From: Candidatus Kaiserbacteria bacterium
GTDB taxonomy: Bacteria > Patescibacteriota > Minisyncoccia > Phycocordibacterales > UBA2100
NCBI GenBank assembly: GCA_016217975.1
Contig: JACRFH010000063.1
Span: 1-43,141 of the forward strand
Reading direction: 5' to 3'
DNA length: 43,141 nucleotides
Below the pieces are notes generated by a model. That model was not told the DNA's origin and did not search any database. It worked only from the letters and a program-made list of their open reading frames with translations. The position numbers and the translations under genes are program-made. This document shows positions 119-11,740 of the stretch, piece after piece; the stretch's first letter is position 1; each line of letters opens with the position of its first letter.

Positions 119-1891
119 ATGAACACTATGCAAAATCTATCATCGCAAAAATTCTTTTTGTATGCTCGCAAGTCTACTGATGTCGAGGACAAGCAGGTTC
201 TTTCGATTGAAGCACAACTCCAAGAATTGCGAGACTATGCCAAGCGAGAGAATATTGAAATCTCCGCCGAGATTGTGGAAAAACAATCTGCGAAAATTCC
301 AGGTCGTCCGATTTTCAATAAAATGTTAGATGAGATTGAAAAACTCGGCGGAAATATCCTCGCTTGGCATCCGGATCGCCTCGCTCGCAATTCTGTTGAT
401 GGTGGACGAGTAATTTATCTCCTCGACACAGGAAAACTTACGAGCTTGAAGTTTCCGACTTTTTGGTGCGATAGCACTTCGCAAGGAAAGTTCATGCTCA
501 ACATCGCCTTTGGGCAAAGCAAATACTATGTGGATTCGCTTGCCGAGAATACCAAACGAGGATTGCGCCAAAAAGTGAGGCGCGGAGAGTATCCCTGCCT
601 TGCGCCTATCGGCTATATCAACGATGTGCGGACAAAAACTGTGGTCGTGGATAAAAAGCGCGCCTCACTCATTCGCAAAGCGTTTGAGCTGTATGCGAAA
701 AATGGGAGCAGATTAGAGGACATCTCAAACTTTTTGGCGCAATCTGGCATCCATTCAAAAAACGGCAAGCGACTCCACCGAGACAGAATTACTTTTATCC
801 TTTCCAATCCATTCTACTACGGACATTTTCGCTATGGCGGCGAAATCCACGAGGGCAAGCACCAGCCAGTCGTCTCAAAGAAAATTTTTGACAAGGCGCA
901 GGAAGTTTTGAAACAGCGAGGCAGACCACACCACAAGCAGAAAAACGAACCACAACCATTTTGCGGCCTCTTATCCTGCGCCTCGTGCGGAATGATGATA
1001 ACTGGCGAATACAAGGTGAAGCACCAAAAGAACGGCAATGTTCACGAGTATGTCTATTACCACTGCACTAAGAAATCAAAACTCAAATGTCCCGAACCTT
1101 GTATTCGCCAAGAAGAACTGGATCGCCAGTTATCATCTCTATTACAAGAATTTTCTTTGAGACAGGATTGGGCGGCGGAATTACAAAAGATGTTAGAAAA
1201 AGAGAACTCCGAAGCCGCCCAATCCTCAACCGCTTTTGTTCAGGAAGTCGGAAACAAAATCCGCGCCATACAAGCAAAACTCCAGCGACTTCTCGATGGA
1301 TATTTGGAACAGGATATTGAAAGAGAAATCTACCGAACCGAAAAAGCAAAACTCCTTTCCGAAAAGAAGTCGCTGGAAGAACAAATGACGCGGATTGAAC
1401 AAAAGCGGACTGGCTGGCTCGAACCGATGGCGGAATGGATAAAAGAGGCAGGAAACCTGCCTGAAATCGCACGGGAGAGTAGCCTTTTTGCGAAAAAGGT
1501 TGCTGCCAAAGAAATCTTTGGCTCGAACCTCGTTTTGGCCAACCGCGAGGCGCGACAGAGCGCGCCGAGCGGAGAGGATTTGTCGGGGCAAAACGCATGG
1601 GCGGCACTTCGTGCCGCCAACGAAAAAGTCGGTCAATTTTCTGAAAGTCAGATTTTGGTGCGGGTAGCGGGAATCGAACCCGCATTTTTTGATTGGCAAC
1701 CAAACGTTCTACCACTGAACCATACCCGCGATACTGAACTTGGCGATTATAGCCTGAAATTCAGGGATTCTGCAATTTCGCTACTTCCTCGGCTCCTTCA
1801 AAAGCAGAATCTGGTGTTGTATCTCGGGCTTGAGCATCGTGGCGATGAGTCCCACAATCGCGATCAAAGTCGCAAGCGCTGGCGCCCATGA
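119..1891 (+). CDS. Large serine recombinase (resolvase + recombinase + zinc ribbon); the C-terminal ~80 codons are readthrough antisense to a tRNA
   Basis: N-terminal FFLYARKSTDVEDKQVLSIEAQLQEL, recombinase region GYINDVRTKTVVVDKKRASLIRKAFELYA, Cys motif CGLLSCASCG...YYHCTKK. Confidence 0.9.
   Translation: MNTMQNLSSQKFFLYARKSTDVEDKQVLSIEAQLQELRDYAKRENIEISAEIVEKQSAKIPGRPIFNKMLDEIEKLGGNILAWHPDRLARNSVDGGRVIYLLDTGKLTSLKFPTFWCDSTSQGKFMLNIAFGQSKYYVDSLAENTKRGLRQKVRRGEYPCLAPIGYINDVRTKTVVVDKKRASLIRKAFELYAKNGSRLEDISNFLAQSGIHSKNGKRLHRDRITFILSNPFYYGHFRYGGEIHEGKHQPVVSKKIFDKAQEVLKQRGRPHHKQKNEPQPFCGLLSCASCGMMITGEYKVKHQKNGNVHEYVYYHCTKKSKLKCPEPCIRQEELDRQLSSLLQEFSLRQDWAAELQKMLEKENSEAAQSSTAFVQEVGNKIRAIQAKLQRLLDGYLEQDIEREIYRTEKAKLLSEKKSLEEQMTRIEQKRTGWLEPMAEWIKEAGNLPEIARESSLFAKKVAAKEIFGSNLVLANREARQSAPSGEDLSGQNAWAALRAANEKVGQFSESQILVRVAGIEPAFFDWQPNVLPLNHTRDTELGDYSLKFRDSAISLLPRLLQKQNLVLYLGLEHRGDESHNRDQSRKRWRP
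1656..1729 (-). tRNA. tRNA-Gly(GCC), CCA encoded
   Basis: Reverse strand GCGGGTA TG GTTCAGTGGTAGAAC G TTTGG TTGCCAA TCAAA ... GCGGGTTCGATTCCCGC TACCCGC ACCA; cloverleaf folds by eye. Confidence 0.93.
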
Positions 1892-2710: not shown

Positions 2711-3041
2711 GGCGGCACCTTAGTACCTCTCAATGTATGAGTCAATTGATGTTTAGTAATCGAACACACTTTTAGAAAAAAGCGAGGTTTAAAGCCATTC
2801 TATCGGACATGCAGTACTGGAAAAAGAGGCATTGTGAAGGACAAATTCAAAATACCAAAATGAAGCAAAATATAGCCAAAACTGGGGAAAACTCTGGGGA
2901 TATGTGGATTACAAGGACACGCGTATCTTACGGTGTATAGGTCATGGCGATTATTTGGCTCAAAATATACCTATTCCAGACATATTCCGAAAACGGACAA
3001 TTAATCACTGACGTAATTCGTTACTAAGTAACGTGTTTTGA

Positions 3042-3059
3042 TGTTTTCACGTGAAAACA
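3042..3059. promoter_or_regulatory. parS-like palindrome TGTTTTCACGTGAAAACA
   Basis: Perfect 18-bp palindrome centred on CACGTG; one extra T/A per arm versus the TGTTTCACGTGAAACA consensus. Confidence 0.4.
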
Positions 3060-3097
3060 ATTTAAATTGTCGATTGGAGAGGCTGTATAATCCTCGA

Positions 3098-3493
3098 ATG
3101 ATTACCTCGAAAAGACAAACGGGAAACCTTGGAGAGGAGATCGCAGTCCAGTTTCTCGTGAAAAAGGGATTCAAAATCATTGAGAGGAATTACAACAAGC
3201 CGTGGGGTGAGATAGATATCATAGCCGAGAAAGGGAATATAGTGAGGTTTGTAGAGGTAAAATCTGTTTCACGTGAAATAAAAGAGGGTGTTACACGTGA
3301 AATCGACTACCGTCCGGAGGAGCTTGTGAATGCGAGAAAGCTGCGAAAATTGGCTCGGACGGCTGCTCTCTACATGGAGTCAAAGCGAGATAAGAGGGAA
3401 TTTCAGATCGATGCCATAGGCGTAATAATGGATGAATCAAAAAGAATCGCTCGGTGTAGATTTTTCGAACAAGCTCTCGAGGATAACTTGTAA
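3098..3493 (+). CDS. yraN: YraN family (UPF0102) endonuclease-like protein
   Basis: RQTGNLGEEIAVQFLVKKGFKIIERNYNKPWGEIDIIAEKGNIVRFVEVKS; start chosen 6 nt after TATAAT. Confidence 0.85.
   Translation: MITSKRQTGNLGEEIAVQFLVKKGFKIIERNYNKPWGEIDIIAEKGNIVRFVEVKSVSREIKEGVTREIDYRPEELVNARKLRKLARTAALYMESKRDKREFQIDAIGVIMDESKRIARCRFFEQALEDNL
3265..3280. promoter_or_regulatory. parS-like site TGTTTCACGTGAAATA
   Basis: 15/16 match to the canonical parS TGTTTCACGTGAAACA, inside yraN. Confidence 0.55.
3289..3304. promoter_or_regulatory. parS-like site TGTTACACGTGAAATC
   Basis: 14/16 match to TGTTNCACGTGAAACA, inside yraN. Confidence 0.45.
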
Positions 3494-3605: not shown

Positions 3606-3676
3606 CGGGGCGTCGTATACCGGTAGTACGCTTGCTTTGGGAGCAAGTAGACAGAGTTCGATTCTCTGCGCCCCGA
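3606..3676 (+). tRNA. tRNA-Pro(TGG), CCA not encoded
   Basis: CGGGGCG TC GTAT ACCGGTA GTAC G CTTGC TTTGGGA GCAAG TAGA CAGAG TTCGATT CTCTG CGCCCCG A. Confidence 0.92.
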
Positions 3677-3680
3677 CAAA
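3662..3680 (+). repeat. att-like direct repeat, left copy (tRNA-Pro 3' end)
   Basis: TTCTCTGCGCCCCGACAAA, identical to 7958-7976. Confidence 0.85.
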
Positions 3681-3750
3681 GAACTCGACGGGATGTGCGG
3701 GGCACATTTTACCCGTTTCATAAAATCGCATTCCGTGGCATGATTTCGAA

Positions 3751-4101
3751 ATGAGAGACAATTGGCACGATATACAGAAAAAAGCCATTAATTTCAGGGA
3801 TATTCGGGATTGGAAACAGTTTCACAACCCAAAGGATATGGCACTTTCTCTCGTTCTGGAGGCGGCCGAAGTCATGGAGCATTTTCAATGGAAGTCGGAA
3901 AAAGAGATAAAAGCTTACGCCAAATCAAACAGAGATGAAATCGGCGATGAATTAGCGGACGTTGTCTACTGGATTGCAACAATGAGCCACGACCTAGGTA
4001 TTGATCTCCCAGAGGCGTTCAAAAAGAAAATGAAGAAGAACGATCAGAAATACCCAGTTACTAAATCCAAAGGCAAGCACACAAAGTACACCGATCTGTA
4101 A
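3751..4101 (+). CDS. MazG-like nucleotide pyrophosphohydrolase
   Basis: RDWKQFHNPKDMALSLVLEAAEVMEHFQW...EIGDELADVVYWIATMSHDLGIDL. Confidence 0.85.
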   Translation: MRDNWHDIQKKAINFRDIRDWKQFHNPKDMALSLVLEAAEVMEHFQWKSEKEIKAYAKSNRDEIGDELADVVYWIATMSHDLGIDLPEAFKKKMKKNDQKYPVTKSKGKHTKYTDL

Positions 4102-4104
4102 GTT

Positions 4105-6129
4105 ATGACTCAGATCCAGACTTTCCCGTTTGAGAAGGATAAATTCGATCAGCTAAAAGAATATCATTTTGGGTTGAATTGGCCCGTCGTCTATATTCAA
4201 GAGAACGGGAAGGAGATGTACATAGGCCAATCGACGAGTGTATATAGCCGCAGTAAGCAGCACTTTGATAACCCGGACAGAGTTCGCTTAAAAAGATTAC
4301 ATATCATTACGGATGAAGAATTTAATTTATCGTCCGCGTATGATTTTGAAGCGTATTTGATTCAATACATTGCTGCCGAAGGAATATATAAATTGCAAAA
4401 TGAAAATGGCGGACTCGTTAATCATAATTACTTCGATAGGGAGAAATATCTAGCCAAGCTTGAAACCGTTTGGCCTCTACTTCGTGAAAAGGCATTGGTT
4501 AAACAGGAACTCAAAGACATAAGAAACAGTGAGTTTTTCAAGTACTCACCCTATAAGGCATTGACACCGGAACAATTAATAGTTTCCGAGAATCTTGAGA
4601 AAAGTATAAGGAAAGGCAAACCTGTAACGCATGTCATAAATGGGTCGCCCGGAACGGGTAAATCTATTCTCGCGCTTTATCTATTGAAGCTCTTGAGAGA
4701 AACGAAACAAACCAAACATCTAAATGCAGCTCTCGTAGTGCCAATGCGTAGTCTGCGAGGCACTCTGCAAAGGGTTTTGAAGCGCGCCCCGGGCATGGGC
4801 GCTGGTATGGTTATCGGCCCGAGTGACGTGATAAAGCAAAAATACGACCTCCTCATTGTCGACGAAGCGCATAGACTACGTCGACGAGTCAATCTGACGA
4901 ACTTTCCATCCTTTGACGGTACTAATAAAGCTCTTGGGCTGAGTAAAGAATCGACACAGCTAGATTGGATTATGGCGTCTTCTGTGCAACAGATTTTCTT
5001 CTATGACCAGCGCCAGAATATTGTTCCTGGCGATGTTCGGCCAGCAGATTTTGAGGAGCTGAATGCCATTCAGCACGAATTAGTGAGTCAGATGCGTGTA
5101 GAAGGCGGCGATGATTATTTGAAATTTATTGACGATCTTCTTGAGCTTAATCGGGCAACTCCGCTGAAATCTGAGAAATACGAGTTCAAAATTTATGACG
5201 ATATTCGAGATATGGTTCGCGACATCAAGATGAAGGATGCAGAGCATAAGCTAGCTAGACTTGTGGCCGGATATGCATGGTCCTGGAATACAAAAGGAGG
5301 CAAAGATGGTCACGATATTGAAATCGACGGTCTAAAGCTCGTCTGGAACAGTACCAATTTAGACTGGGTAAATTCCAGGAATTCGATCAACGAAGTTGGA
5401 TGCATCTACACGGTGCAGGGATATGATCTAAATTATGCTGGGATCATCATCGGACCTGAACTTTCCTATAACGAATCGACAGGCAAGCTAGTTATAGACG
5501 AGAAAAAGTACAAAGACATCAACGGCAAGCGTTCCATTACTGAGCCCGGCGAGTTGAAGAGATACATAATCAACATTTATAAAACTCTTCTCACCCGTGG
5601 AATTAAGGGAACATATGTATACGTGGTTGATGAAAAACTGAGAAATCAATTCAAGCAATTGCTTGGCAATATGTCAGTTAAAAGTCCAATTGTGATATCA
5701 GAGAAACTGACACTTTCTCCGATCACGGTCGCGATGGTACAAATACCCCTCGTGGGCTCTGCGCCTTGCGGAAACCCATTGCTGGGTGAAGAAAATATCG
5801 AAGAGCACATTTTAGTCGAGAAGTCGAAAATAAAACATGGTTATCAATATTTCATTCTTCGGGCAGAAGGTGACTCAATGGATCTTGCGGGGATTAATGA
5901 TGGAGATATTGTCCTATGTCGTCAGCAAGAGAAGGCTGATACCGGAGATCGTGTAGTAGCGCTTTTAGGTGGTGAGAATGTGACAATTAAGAAATATGGT
6001 CCACGCGAAAATGGGATCCGCTTGCTCTTGCCCGTAAGTTCAAACAAAAGTCATATACCAATTACTCCAGGTGAGGGCGACAGTGTGCAGGGCATCGTGC
6101 AAGAAGTAATCGAAGAAAGAGATGAATAG
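4105..6129 (+). CDS. GIY-YIG nuclease - DUF2075-type helicase - LexA/UmuD-like S24 peptidase fusion
   Basis: N-terminal VVYIQENGKEMYIGQS...SRSKQHF; Walker A NGSPGTGKS; Walker B YDLLIVDEAHRLRR; GCIYTVQGYDLNYAGIIIGPEL; C-terminal PLVGSAPCGNPLLGEENIEE...ILRAEGDSMDLAGINDGDIVLC...GDRVVALLGGENVTIKKY. Confidence 0.85.
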   Translation: MTQIQTFPFEKDKFDQLKEYHFGLNWPVVYIQENGKEMYIGQSTSVYSRSKQHFDNPDRVRLKRLHIITDEEFNLSSAYDFEAYLIQYIAAEGIYKLQNENGGLVNHNYFDREKYLAKLETVWPLLREKALVKQELKDIRNSEFFKYSPYKALTPEQLIVSENLEKSIRKGKPVTHVINGSPGTGKSILALYLLKLLRETKQTKHLNAALVVPMRSLRGTLQRVLKRAPGMGAGMVIGPSDVIKQKYDLLIVDEAHRLRRRVNLTNFPSFDGTNKALGLSKESTQLDWIMASSVQQIFFYDQRQNIVPGDVRPADFEELNAIQHELVSQMRVEGGDDYLKFIDDLLELNRATPLKSEKYEFKIYDDIRDMVRDIKMKDAEHKLARLVAGYAWSWNTKGGKDGHDIEIDGLKLVWNSTNLDWVNSRNSINEVGCIYTVQGYDLNYAGIIIGPELSYNESTGKLVIDEKKYKDINGKRSITEPGELKRYIINIYKTLLTRGIKGTYVYVVDEKLRNQFKQLLGNMSVKSPIVISEKLTLSPITVAMVQIPLVGSAPCGNPLLGEENIEEHILVEKSKIKHGYQYFILRAEGDSMDLAGINDGDIVLCRQQEKADTGDRVVALLGGENVTIKKYGPRENGIRLLLPVSSNKSHIPITPGEGDSVQGIVQEVIEERDE

Positions 6130-6238
6130 GGCAGTGGACGCTCGCTACGGCAAACGCTTATTCAAATCCGAGCCTGAGCGGCTCGAATTTCTTTTCGACC
6201 TTTATATGGGGATAATTGCAAAAGATGTTGCAAAATAA
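6122..6238 (+). CDS. 38-aa micro-ORF overlapping the helicase stop (MNRAVDARYGKRLFKSEPERLEFLFDLYMGIIAKDVAK)
   Basis: ATG at 6122 overlaps the upstream TAG (ATGAATAG); open to TAA at 6236; below the ORF-track length cutoff. Confidence 0.5.
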   Translation: MNRAVDARYGKRLFKSEPERLEFLFDLYMGIIAKDVAK

Positions 6239-6310
6239 GGCTATTTCGACACGTGAATAATTTACCTTGTTGGTAAAGAAAACTTGCGCTATAATCCCAT
6301 TCCATATACT

Positions 6311-6616
6311 ATGGAAATATCCTTCAAGAACGGTCGAGAGAAGGAATTTTATCAGAGTAAGTCCGCTCTTACGAGCGCATATGGTGATCGAATGGCGCGA
6401 AAGATTGCCCAGCGAATCAGCGAGCTGCAGGCAGCGGGAACTGCGCAGCAACTACCGAGCGGAGCACGATTCCACGAGCATAGCGGAAGGCGTGAAGGAC
6501 TCTTCTCCATCAATTTAGTACAGCCTATGCGGCTCATCGTAAGGCCAACGTGCTCGTATAAAGCTTGGGTCGAGATAACGAGCGTGGAGATTTACGAGAT
6601 AATGGACCCCCACTAG
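6311..6616 (+). CDS. HigB-like (RelE superfamily) toxin
   Basis: MEISFKNGREKEFYQSKSALTSAYGDRMARKIAQRISELQAA...GLFSINLVQPMRLIVRP; adjacent HigA-like gene. Confidence 0.8.
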   Translation: MEISFKNGREKEFYQSKSALTSAYGDRMARKIAQRISELQAAGTAQQLPSGARFHEHSGRREGLFSINLVQPMRLIVRPTCSYKAWVEITSVEIYEIMDPH

Positions 6617-6622
6617 AAATAT

Positions 6623-7693
6623 ATGGTCGAGACAAAACTTTCTTATAATCCGGATTTCGCTATACACCCTGGCGAGACACTTCGCGAGGAACTTGATCTC
6701 GCGAGCATCTCCCAAGTGGAACTCGTGCAACGAACGGGCCTTAGCGAGAAACACATAAGCCAAATCATAAACGGCGAGGCCTCTGTCACTCCAGATACAG
6801 CTATCAAACTTGAGCGTTCTTTGGGCATAGCTGCTGAATTTTGGGCGAATTTACAGAAAAATTACGATGTGACAGTAGCGAGAATAGAATCAGAGAAACG
6901 ACTCGCAAAGGAAATAGATGAATCTAGGAAATTTAAATGCTATGAAGAACTTGTCAGTGTTGGTTGCATAAAGCCCGCACAAGATTTGAAAGAAAAAGCA
7001 GAAAATCTCTTGAATTTCTTTGCCGTAGATTCTCTTGCTTATTTGCCGCAAACGGAAGCAATCGCTTTCCGCCAAACTCGTGGAAAATTCGATGAACGCT
7101 CTCTTGCTGCATGGTTACGGTGTGGAGAAATTGAAGCGTCGAGGCTTCAAGTCGGACCGTTTAATAAAATGCGGGTGCGAGAAATTATTCCAGAGATCAA
7201 GAAATTGACCTTACTTCCCGAGGGATTTGGTAGAAAATTACAAACGCTTTGTGCAACAGCTGGCATTGCAGTAGTGTTTAGTCCGTATTTTAAAAAGACA
7301 CGCGTAAGCGGGTCAACCAGATGGATTGGGGACAAGGCTGTAATTCAGATAAATACAAAAGGTGCGTATAGCGACATATTTTGGTTTACGTTTTTCCATG
7401 AGCTTGGACACGTGATGTTGCACGGTGTTAAAGAACGGTTCTTAGAATTTGAGGGGAAAACGAAAGATGAAAAAGAGCGAGAGGCAGATGAATTTGCAGC
7501 CAAGAATCTCATACCAGAATCGGAATACGGGACATATATTCGATCTGGTAAACTGGACCGCGTCACTGCAGAAAGATTCGCGAGATCAGTTGGTATCGAT
7601 GCAAGTATTGTCTTGGGTCGACTGGCATACGATGGGTTTGCTCAGTGGCGACAAATCGCACATGATAGACCACGCTTAATGATCCGACCTTAA
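6623..7693 (+). CDS. HigA-type HTH antitoxin fused to an ImmA/IrrE metallopeptidase
   Basis: HPGETLREELDLASISQVELVQRTGLSEKHISQIING and FTFFHELGHVMLHG (HExxH-like). Confidence 0.9.
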   Translation: MVETKLSYNPDFAIHPGETLREELDLASISQVELVQRTGLSEKHISQIINGEASVTPDTAIKLERSLGIAAEFWANLQKNYDVTVARIESEKRLAKEIDESRKFKCYEELVSVGCIKPAQDLKEKAENLLNFFAVDSLAYLPQTEAIAFRQTRGKFDERSLAAWLRCGEIEASRLQVGPFNKMRVREIIPEIKKLTLLPEGFGRKLQTLCATAGIAVVFSPYFKKTRVSGSTRWIGDKAVIQINTKGAYSDIFWFTFFHELGHVMLHGVKERFLEFEGKTKDEKEREADEFAAKNLIPESEYGTYIRSGKLDRVTAERFARSVGIDASIVLGRLAYDGFAQWRQIAHDRPRLMIRP

Positions 7694-7700
7694 TTTTGGT

Positions 7701-7952
7701 ATGAGCAAGAAAGACGCACAAAAGAATATCAAGCTTTCTCTGGAGTTCGATACCTATGTATCGCACAATCCAAAAGTCCTAGACTCTCTGCCGAGAGGTT
7801 CACATATTATTGTTGTTTCTTCAGGTGACAAAAGACTTTCAGATGAAAATCTTAAAATGGCTCGAAATAGTAGATCAGGGAAGTTTGTCGTTGCTTCGAA
7901 GGAGGATAGTCATTGGAATATAAAACCACTCTCCAAGTGGGTGGCTGCGTAG
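7701..7952 (+). CDS. Small uncharacterised protein, possibly DUF5647-like
   Basis: 83-aa ORF LSLEFDTYVSHNPKVLDSLPRGSHIIVVSSGDKRLSDENLKMA; last gene before the right repeat. Confidence 0.45.
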   Translation: MSKKDAQKNIKLSLEFDTYVSHNPKVLDSLPRGSHIIVVSSGDKRLSDENLKMARNSRSGKFVVASKEDSHWNIKPLSKWVAA

Positions 7953-7957
7953 GTTTT

Positions 7958-7976
7958 TTCTCTGCGCCCCGACAAA
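7958..7976 (+). repeat. att-like direct repeat, right copy
   Basis: TTCTCTGCGCCCCGACAAA, identical to 3662-3680. Confidence 0.85.
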
Positions 7977-9122
7977 CTAGTGGGAGAGCACCGCCACGTA
8001 TTTAGCGATGAGAACCGGAGCGACGTTTTGCCTGAAATCGTTGGCTTGCTCTGTGATGTTGCCAGTCAGGATCGTTTGCAGATTCTTGCCGCTCTGTGCG
8101 GCGATGTCGGTGTTGATGTAGCTAAGGGTAAGCGCCCGCAAATCGCGCTCGGCGGTCGTTGCTCCTTCGCTTGTGGTTGTGATCATGCCTATGAGGCGTC
8201 CCCAGACGTTCACGACGGGCCCACCACTAGAGCCTCCTTGGGCTTCCACGACGCCACCGATGGAGAAGATGTCGACGCTTCCGCTTGAGAAAGTGAGGAG
8301 CTCGCGAATGGTGCTGATTGAGCTCACGGGGTAAAGACCATACTGTGCAGCGATGCCGCCGACGAATTCTGCGGGGTATCCGGCAGCGAGCACTTGGTCA
8401 TCAAGAAAGCCGATCGCTTCACGCGAATCGGGCTCGAGGTAGGGGAGTGGCCCGGGGAGAGGCGTTCCAGAAATTGTCGATACGACGCGCAGAAGTGCAT
8501 AGTCATGCTCTCCCGTCCCCGTTGGCTTATCTATTGTGATGTCTCTTGCATGCTCAGCCACCCAGACTGATGGCATGAAAAGTACGTCGGCAATCAGGGC
8601 AGGCTGCGCAGGTGCGCCCACGCGAATAGTGCATGAGAGATCAAATCGTGGATCTTGCGAGAGAAGGACGTACTGCGCGACGTGGGCGTTGGTCAGAATG
8701 ACACCGCTTGGCGAGACGATGACGCCCGAGCCAGAGATCGGCTTCAATGAGCCGCTTCGCGGCGCACAGAGAATATTAACGAGCGCTGCGCGTGTCGAGG
8801 CATTGACTTCCTCCATGGATTTTGGCGCAAAGGGATAGGGGTTTTGGATGCGAGTGATTTGTGACGTAGTCGCATTCGAGGTCGTATTTGCGGGGGTTTT
8901 TGCCGCTTTAGGCTTCGCAGCTTTTGGTGTTGTTTTTGGAGTGGACGATACCCCGGGAGCCGATGTTGTTGCGGGAGCTACGACAGCGATGCTCGCGCTT
9001 TGCGACGTGGTTGCAGTACTGTTTTGCACGGCGACTTCAGGGACAGAGGCGGCAAGGATGAAAACAGCAAGCGCGACAATGCACAGCGCCGCAATCCAGG
9101 TAAATAATGATCGGGAGAACAT
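7977..9122 (-). CDS. Trypsin-like (S1) serine protease, membrane-anchored
   Basis: SGSGVIVSPSGVILTNAHVAQ, HDYALLRV, EAQGGSSGGPVVNVWGRLIGM. Confidence 0.85.
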   Translation of the reverse strand: MFSRSLFTWIAALCIVALAVFILAASVPEVAVQNSTATTSQSASIAVVAPATTSAPGVSSTPKTTPKAAKPKAAKTPANTTSNATTSQITRIQNPYPFAPKSMEEVNASTRAALVNILCAPRSGSLKPISGSGVIVSPSGVILTNAHVAQYVLLSQDPRFDLSCTIRVGAPAQPALIADVLFMPSVWVAEHARDITIDKPTGTGEHDYALLRVVSTISGTPLPGPLPYLEPDSREAIGFLDDQVLAAGYPAEFVGGIAAQYGLYPVSSISTIRELLTFSSGSVDIFSIGGVVEAQGGSSGGPVVNVWGRLIGMITTTSEGATTAERDLRALTLSYINTDIAAQSGKNLQTILTGNITEQANDFRQNVAPVLIAKYVAVLSH

Positions 9123-10269: not shown

Positions 10270-10363
10270 ATTTTGTGTATTAGTGTATTAGTTTTTGCGC
10301 ACTTATAATCACATAAGAACTATTCGACCAATATACTACCATATTGAGCCGTTTTTTAGGCGT

Positions 10364-10472
10364 GTCAACCCCGTAGAGGCCTAGACGTGAATAATTAAAT
10401 TTTGTCCATATTTTGACAAGTACATGATGAAGGAATGGCGCGATTTTCGCGGAGGCCTTTTACGGGGTCAAC
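10364..10472. repeat. ~109-bp intergenic segment bounded by an imperfect inverted repeat
   Basis: GTCAACCCCGTAGAGGCC (10364-10381) versus GGCCTTTTACGGGGTCAAC (10454-10472). Confidence 0.5.
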
Positions 10473-11476: not shown

Positions 11477-11740
11477 ATGGAATTTGTCCACTCGCGGCTC
11501 TATAAGCGGCAATTCAAGAGATTGCCTCGCGATTTGCAGATGAAGGTAATGGAGCGTCTGGTACTTTTCGTGCGAGATGAAATGCATCCACTTCTCGATA
11601 ATCACGCTTTAGGACATCAATGGGCAGGCTGCAGACGCATCAACATCACTGGCGATTATCGAACGATCTTCAAAAAAGAATCAGAAACTCTTGTTCGACT
11701 TGAGGCAGTCGGCACTCACCATCAATTGTACGGAAAGTAG
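11477..11740 (+). CDS. YafQ/RelE-like toxin
   Basis: HSRLYKRQFKRLPRDLQMKVMERL...RRINITGDYRTIFKKE. Confidence 0.75.
   Translation: MEFVHSRLYKRQFKRLPRDLQMKVMERLVLFVRDEMHPLLDNHALGHQWAGCRRINITGDYRTIFKKESETLVRLEAVGTHHQLYGK

Follow-up and report, generated by a model that had tools for sequence, protein, structure and literature searches.

A compact integrase-free island, probably inserted by site-specific recombination at the 3′ end of tRNA-Pro(UGG), in a Patescibacteria genome

The window considered here, a 43,141-nucleotide stretch of Candidatus Kaiserbacteria DNA, makes up the whole of contig C54 in a Patescibacteria genome of 0.94 Mb and 65 contigs. It contains a 4.3-kb block enclosed by two 19-bp repeats, between a tRNA-Pro(UGG) gene and a convergent protease gene. 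This block (positions 3681-7976) is probably a small, tightly packed genomic island, brought in through site-specific recombination at the tRNA 3′ end, and it carries two defence-type modules. The insertion is real and precisely bounded; it is of an ordinary type, that of islands at tRNA ends, and its unusual features are the missing integrase and a nuclease-helicase pair that is apparently undescribed. It provides an integrase-free, defence-type island with exact boundaries in a lineage of reduced genomes, with many empty sites for comparison. The junctions comprise the following features, of which the repeats and the hairpin were read directly from the sequence:

3038-3493, plus strand: YraN/UPF0102 gene, conserved flank outside the island, start not refined (PF02021, 1.5e-20)
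3606-3677, plus strand: tRNA-Pro(TGG), intact, the presumed integration target (ARAGORN; Rfam RF00005, 56.5 bits)
3662-3680, plus strand: left 19-bp repeat, the tRNA from T-loop to end, plus CAAA
3688-3716, plus strand: hairpin ACGGGATGTGC-GGG-GCACATTTTACCCGT, immediately inside the left repeat
7958-7976, plus strand: right 19-bp repeat, the tRNA 3′ end in a second, displaced copy directly next to the stop codon of the protease gene
7977-9122, minus strand: trypsin-like protease, conserved convergent flank outside the island (Trypsin_2, PF13365, 4.8e-13)

A scan of the window found the 19-mer TTCTCTGCGCCCCGACAAA exactly at both repeat positions, with no further copy at up to three mismatches in the window or across the 0.94-Mb genome; the shuffle expectation for copies in the window is 0.01. 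The first-pass annotation of this DNA had placed exact att-like repeats at the tRNA-Pro 3′ end and at the protease stop codon, and these prove to be the sole such pair in the genome; the gene order it described, including the convergent trypsin-like protease, also holds. All genes between the repeats are co-directional and tightly spaced, with 70 bp from the left repeat to the first start codon and 5 bp from the last stop codon to the right repeat. The G+C content of the island is 43.6%, versus 51.4% for the rest. A hairpin similar to that at 3688-3716 also lies 3′ of tRNA-Pro in two relatives (G035 and G011).

The 4.3-kb block is an insertion, and empty sites for it exist. Of the 53 genomes of the genus, 44 have the YraN/UPF0102 gene and 44 have the protease, and tRNA-Pro lies between them wherever the region is contiguous in congeners, where the empty site reads YraN/UPF0102, tRNA-Pro, protease, tRNA-Gly. 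The empty-site allele that the annotation had proposed to seek was found by measuring the distance from the tRNA 3′ end to the protease in the 25 congeners with tRNA-Pro pointing at the protease: 21 of them have 8-280 bp, the other four 786-914 bp, and only the window has 4.3 kb. The opposite pattern, a gene order shared by relatives with no empty site, was not observed, and the window's cargo occurs at the tRNA-Pro site in no relative searched. After the window's distal copy comes CAAA-CTAG, which is similar to what immediately follows the tRNA in empty sites; several of these continue from the tRNA into GAC-AAA or GAC-TAG, again like the sequence past that copy. Together, the junction anatomy and the empty sites show an insertion with a displaced tRNA end.

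Longer gaps at tRNA-Pro in relatives carry other cargo, namely a patatin-like gene (G004), unknown open reading frames (ORFs; G018 and G010) and, as identified by eye, an EamA/DMT-like transporter (G076); in G015 the tRNA-Pro is oppositely oriented and is followed by about 4 kb with a dehydrogenase and a toxin-like ORF, again judged by eye. The tRNA-Pro 3′ end is therefore a recurrent insertion site in the genus. The arrangement corresponds to that of the tRNA-gene islands catalogued in Islander (PMC4383910): the segment runs from an intact tRNA gene to a displaced 3′ piece of the tRNA with the same orientation, an empty site is found in relatives (21 congeners), and the cargo at one tRNA varies between relatives. 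Unlike those islands, the window island has no tyrosine integrase within it and is very small (4.3 kb).

As to mechanism, the recombination would have taken place at the tRNA-Pro(UGG) 3′ end. Because the incoming DNA would itself have brought a copy of that end, the tRNA would have stayed whole, and the 19 bp that were there before would have shifted to the other side of the island. A restored empty site would then read ...CTCTGCGCCCCGACAAACTAGTGGGAG..., and a circle junction would consist of the right end GTTTTT, the repeat and GAACTCGACGG. In line with the annotation, neither the ORFs nor a scan with Pfam profiles revealed a recombinase between the repeats, and since none is encoded, the island would have moved in trans or lost its integrase. 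The term non-autonomous, also proposed there, is thus apt as to the lack of an internal recombinase, and does not separate movement in trans from decay. One recombinase is encoded nearby, 1.8 kb outside the left repeat:

119-1891, plus strand: large serine recombinase outside the island, its C-terminal frame running antisense through tRNA-Gly(GCC) at 1656-1729 (PF00239/PF07508; ARAGORN)

The genome encodes two tyrosine and three serine recombinases, two of the latter running antisense into a tRNA in the same layout (in the window at tRNA-Gly, and on contig C33 at tRNA-Ser(cga)). According to Islander, targeting of tRNA genes is known for tyrosine recombinases only (PMC4383910), and these two antisense serine recombinases are therefore worth testing as helpers; the enzyme at 119-1891 is no more than a candidate for the trans-acting recombinase. 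Elsewhere, large serine recombinases at L126:269-2035 (tRNA-Ser at 1914-1999) and L135:2640-3995 also have a C-terminal frame that runs antisense into a tRNA or stops just short of one. Integrase-less hitchhikers such as clusters of attC sites lacking integrases (CALINs) and miniature inverted-repeat transposable elements (MITEs) are likewise mobile-looking DNA with no recombinase of their own (PMC11389934); the window island differs from them in having no identified shared end-sequence family or helper.

The island genes fall into two modules. Those of the first, listed with the micro-ORF that comes after them, are:

3751-4101, plus strand: MazG-like nucleotide pyrophosphohydrolase gene (PF12643, 1.8e-18)
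4105-6129, plus strand: fusion of GIY-YIG nuclease, SLFN-g3 (superfamily 1) helicase and S24 (LexA/UmuD-type) autoprotease, 674 amino acids (PF09848, 8.8e-67; Peptidase_S24, PF00717, 8.4e-20)
6122-6238, plus strand: putative 38-codon micro-ORF overlapping the nuclease-helicase stop codon, before the HigB gene (found by eye in the sequence only)

The annotation's order of genes is kept and its labels are refined: its GIY-YIG-helicase-S24 protein has a SLFN-g3 helicase and a Peptidase_S24 domain behind the GIY-YIG domain, and its last small ORF belongs to DUF5647 (below). In the N-terminal domain Y39, G41, R49, E82 and N101 are invariant among 22 N-terminal homologues, and the AlphaFold model (predicted local distance difference score, pLDDT, 85.6; predicted template modelling score, pTM, 0.82) resembles the GIY-YIG domain of UvrC (probability 0.92-0.98, with E values of only 0.05-0.13); by motif and predicted fold, this domain qualifies as a GIY-YIG nuclease. 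The S24 domain aligns with LexA at a Cys-Gly cleavage site and a Ser/Lys dyad, both kept in the S24-bearing homologues examined, and is by these residues (Ala/Cys-Gly site, catalytic Ser and Lys) a predicted autoprotease. In contrast to LexA and UmuD, it sits behind a nuclease-helicase, not behind a repressor or polymerase subunit, and is missing in about half of the homologues: it was found in 34 of 80 nuclease-helicase loci, and is absent from the sampled Firmicutes and Actinobacteria loci.

MazG adjoins the nuclease-helicase in 75 of these 80 related loci, from Patescibacteria, Bacteroidota, Firmicutes, Actinobacteria and Proteobacteria. Neighbours of the pair often include restriction, abortive infection (Abi), Fic or RloB genes, among them AAA_21 with RloB, SocA-Panacea, AbiEii, Fic, RhuM and a DNA methylase. 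PADLOC gave partial matches of the fusion protein to Nhi and AbiO over the helicase (2.5e-10 and 1.7e-9), at residues 147-375 only. These systems share the superfamily 1/SLFN-g3-type helicase core, whereas in the window protein the nuclease is of the GIY-YIG type, an S24 tail follows and a MazG gene adjoins; membership in Nhi or AbiO was rejected, as the match lacks the nuclease part. No description of the pair was found in the open literature searched, and it is apparently undescribed. The nuclease-helicase would most likely attack invading or damaged DNA, its LexA/UmuD-like tail may serve as a damage-triggered switch by cleaving itself at Cys-Gly, and MazG may hydrolyse nucleotides that need clearance in the response. 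Kept across phyla and with no complete PADLOC match, the pair is thus a ready candidate for phage challenge.

In Patescibacteria, several copies of module 1 have a tRNA on the same strand 1.7-4.3 kb upstream (Ser, Ser, Gln, Thr/Tyr, His and Leu, plus Gln in G037); this is about twice a rough expectation from tRNA density and is suggestive only. Possible flanking repeats at tRNA-Ser (L085), tRNA-Gln (L088) and other tRNAs were rejected as weak, chance-level matches. Two loci do have a tRNA repeat, at tRNA-Asn (L145) and tRNA-Met (L198), with module 1 outside the repeat in both; in the latter, from Aeromicrobium massiliense JC14, an exact 42-bp tRNA-Met 3′ repeat has its distal copy 4.8 kb downstream, and the MazG and GIY-YIG-helicase pair lies just beyond it.

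The second module consists of:

6311-6616, plus strand: HigB/RelE-like toxin gene (PF05015, 0.0013, below the cut-off; homologue L240 39% identical)
6623-7693, plus strand: HigA antitoxin (helix-turn-helix) fused to an ImmA/IrrE M78 peptidase, PD-lambda-2 B-like (TIGR02607, 3.6e-19; PF06114; PADLOC PD-Lambda-2_B, 1.6e-29)
7701-7952, plus strand: DUF5647 gene, 83 amino acids (PF18882, 4.5e-10)

PD-lambda-2 comprises a HigB-like gene, a HigA-peptidase gene and a third gene related to a P4 antitoxin; it is active against lambda and protects by abortive infection (PMC9519451). The island shows the same succession of a gene that is a candidate for HigB-like, HigA fused to an ImmA-type peptidase as in the B component, and a small third gene. 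The HigB gene is weak for PF05015, for which its homologues score higher (three of four pass the cut-off), and does not match the PADLOC A model; DUF5647 has no PADLOC match at E≤10, that to the C model included. With DUF5647 as its third gene, module 2 is not filed under PD-lambda-2, and by analogy it may at most work like it, as a HigB/HigA-ImmA toxin-antitoxin unit probably acting by abortive infection. HigB and HigA-ImmA genes are also adjacent in G044 and G092. DUF5647 follows DUF7718 in two other genomes (L252:1480-2060 and L253:1447-2003), which looks like an undescribed two-gene unit, perhaps a toxin-antitoxin pair.

Several points weigh against an island that arrived by site-specific recombination with functional defence cargo. 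The absence of an internal recombinase is the first, and no tRNA lies in the stretches read around the genome's tyrosine recombinases (C61 and C7). No close relative with the same island was found, neither integration nor excision was seen directly, and the nearest proteases are only about 57% identical. At other tRNAs no repeat was found to flank module 1, which lies outside the repeat in the two loci above. PADLOC reports no complete known defence system in the island, and viral carriage of the nuclease-helicase was dismissed, its relatives giving only two weak matches in IMG/VR. As family membership and neighbourhood are what points to phage defence, this role is put forward as a suggestion.

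Within the reading of the block as a site-specific island, a special case opposed to movement in trans is that of a once autonomous, tRNA-targeting element whose integrase was deleted, leaving cargo between intact att sites. This is possible, and we hold it tentatively: standard islands of this kind carry integrases (PMC4383910) and no recombinase is left in this one, but the tight packing of the genes leaves almost no free space at the ends, and the Pfam hits in the island include no integrase remnant. A different origin, by homologous or illegitimate recombination among repeated pieces of the tRNA-Pro 3′ end and not through an integrase, is unlikely. Such pieces do occur in relatives: G003, G015 and G066 have perfect copies of 21-23 bp at a distance of 127-224 bp past tRNA-Pro, G011, G028 and G067 have tandem tRNA 3′ halves, and G035 has a near copy at the protease side. 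The window, in contrast, has two copies only; they match exactly over 19 bp, extend beyond the end of the tRNA and are cleanly flanked left and right. An assembly chimera, in which low-G+C foreign DNA was mis-joined into a metagenome contig through the repeat, would suit the G+C step and the 65 contigs with no close strains, but is most improbable, as one and the same 19-mer would be needed at two independent junctions, the closest relatives of module 1 (68-74% identical) are from the same phylum and genus, and comparable insertions occupy the tRNA-Pro site in relatives.

A second kind of insertion was noted at the same tRNA-Pro site in relatives, a covarying three-way-junction element of about 115 nucleotides (nt; model R1) that also occurs behind tRNAs of more than 20 kinds and behind transfer-messenger RNA (tmRNA). 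At its 3′ end it repeats the final 17-27 nt of the tRNA before it, starting from the T-loop (in most copies, usually exactly), and it opens with a strand that is the reverse complement of the T-arm of that tRNA. It is present in 46 of 53 congeners, with up to 18 copies per genome, and in 54 of 147 genomes sampled from the class. Among 69 placed hits, 57 lie within 400 nt behind a same-strand tRNA and three behind tmRNA, most of the rest being near contig ends; in G305 all ten hits read sit behind tRNAs. Examples are L031:2805-2922, L033:1365-1470, L043:1105-1231, L097:1535-1651, L211, L218 and many more, including tandem copies; those behind tmRNA are at L289:10488-11005, L290:8467-9012 and L292:641-1219, with gaps of about 77-81 nt. 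Because tmRNA is used as well, the target seems to be the T-arm in general and not tRNA genes alone. The tRNA-Gly(TCC) site is empty in the window and filled in G028, with the ancestral terminator after the distal copy; the R1 elements are therefore insertions.

In a class-wide alignment with hits mostly from outside the genus, fitted to the model and so favouring structure, R1 pairing holds in 93.9% of cells, with a covariation of 0.609 versus 0.177±0.012 when shuffled and at most 0.15 when slid. The pairing exceptions G-T (22) and A-C (20) are equally rare, a hint that the structure is one of DNA and not of RNA. Rfam has no family for the element, and no paper on it was found in the open literature searched; the nearest parallel may be the rtT repeats behind tyrT of E. 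coli, a likeness that this search did not confirm. Structured elements that track tRNA and tmRNA genes make it a directly testable question what inserts DNA at tRNA ends in Patescibacteria.

A further reading, which we consider improbable, sees the window island as one product, loaded with cargo, of a Patescibacteria insertion system that targets T-arms and also spreads R1 elements; a recombinase in trans would then load defence genes behind tRNAs in the manner of an integron loading cassettes. An R1 element as the end of the island was rejected, with no hit in the window and a best score of 15.5 bits (E 0.94) in its whole genome. Behind tRNA-Pro in L039, L031 and L106, and also in L034, lie short tandem pieces made of the hairpin GGATGTGC-GGG-GCACATCC, or compensated variants of it, and the tRNA-Pro 3′ half; the start of the window island resembles this hairpin, and G035 has about 50 bp with the hairpin between two tRNA ends. 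On the minus strand of L145, two R1 elements behind tRNA-Asn (10279-10411 and 11577-11672, the distal one with an exact tRNA-Asn end) enclose about 1.2 kb of small ORFs, possibly a cargo-bearing form of the element, and a MazG/nuclease-helicase pair lies just beyond them.

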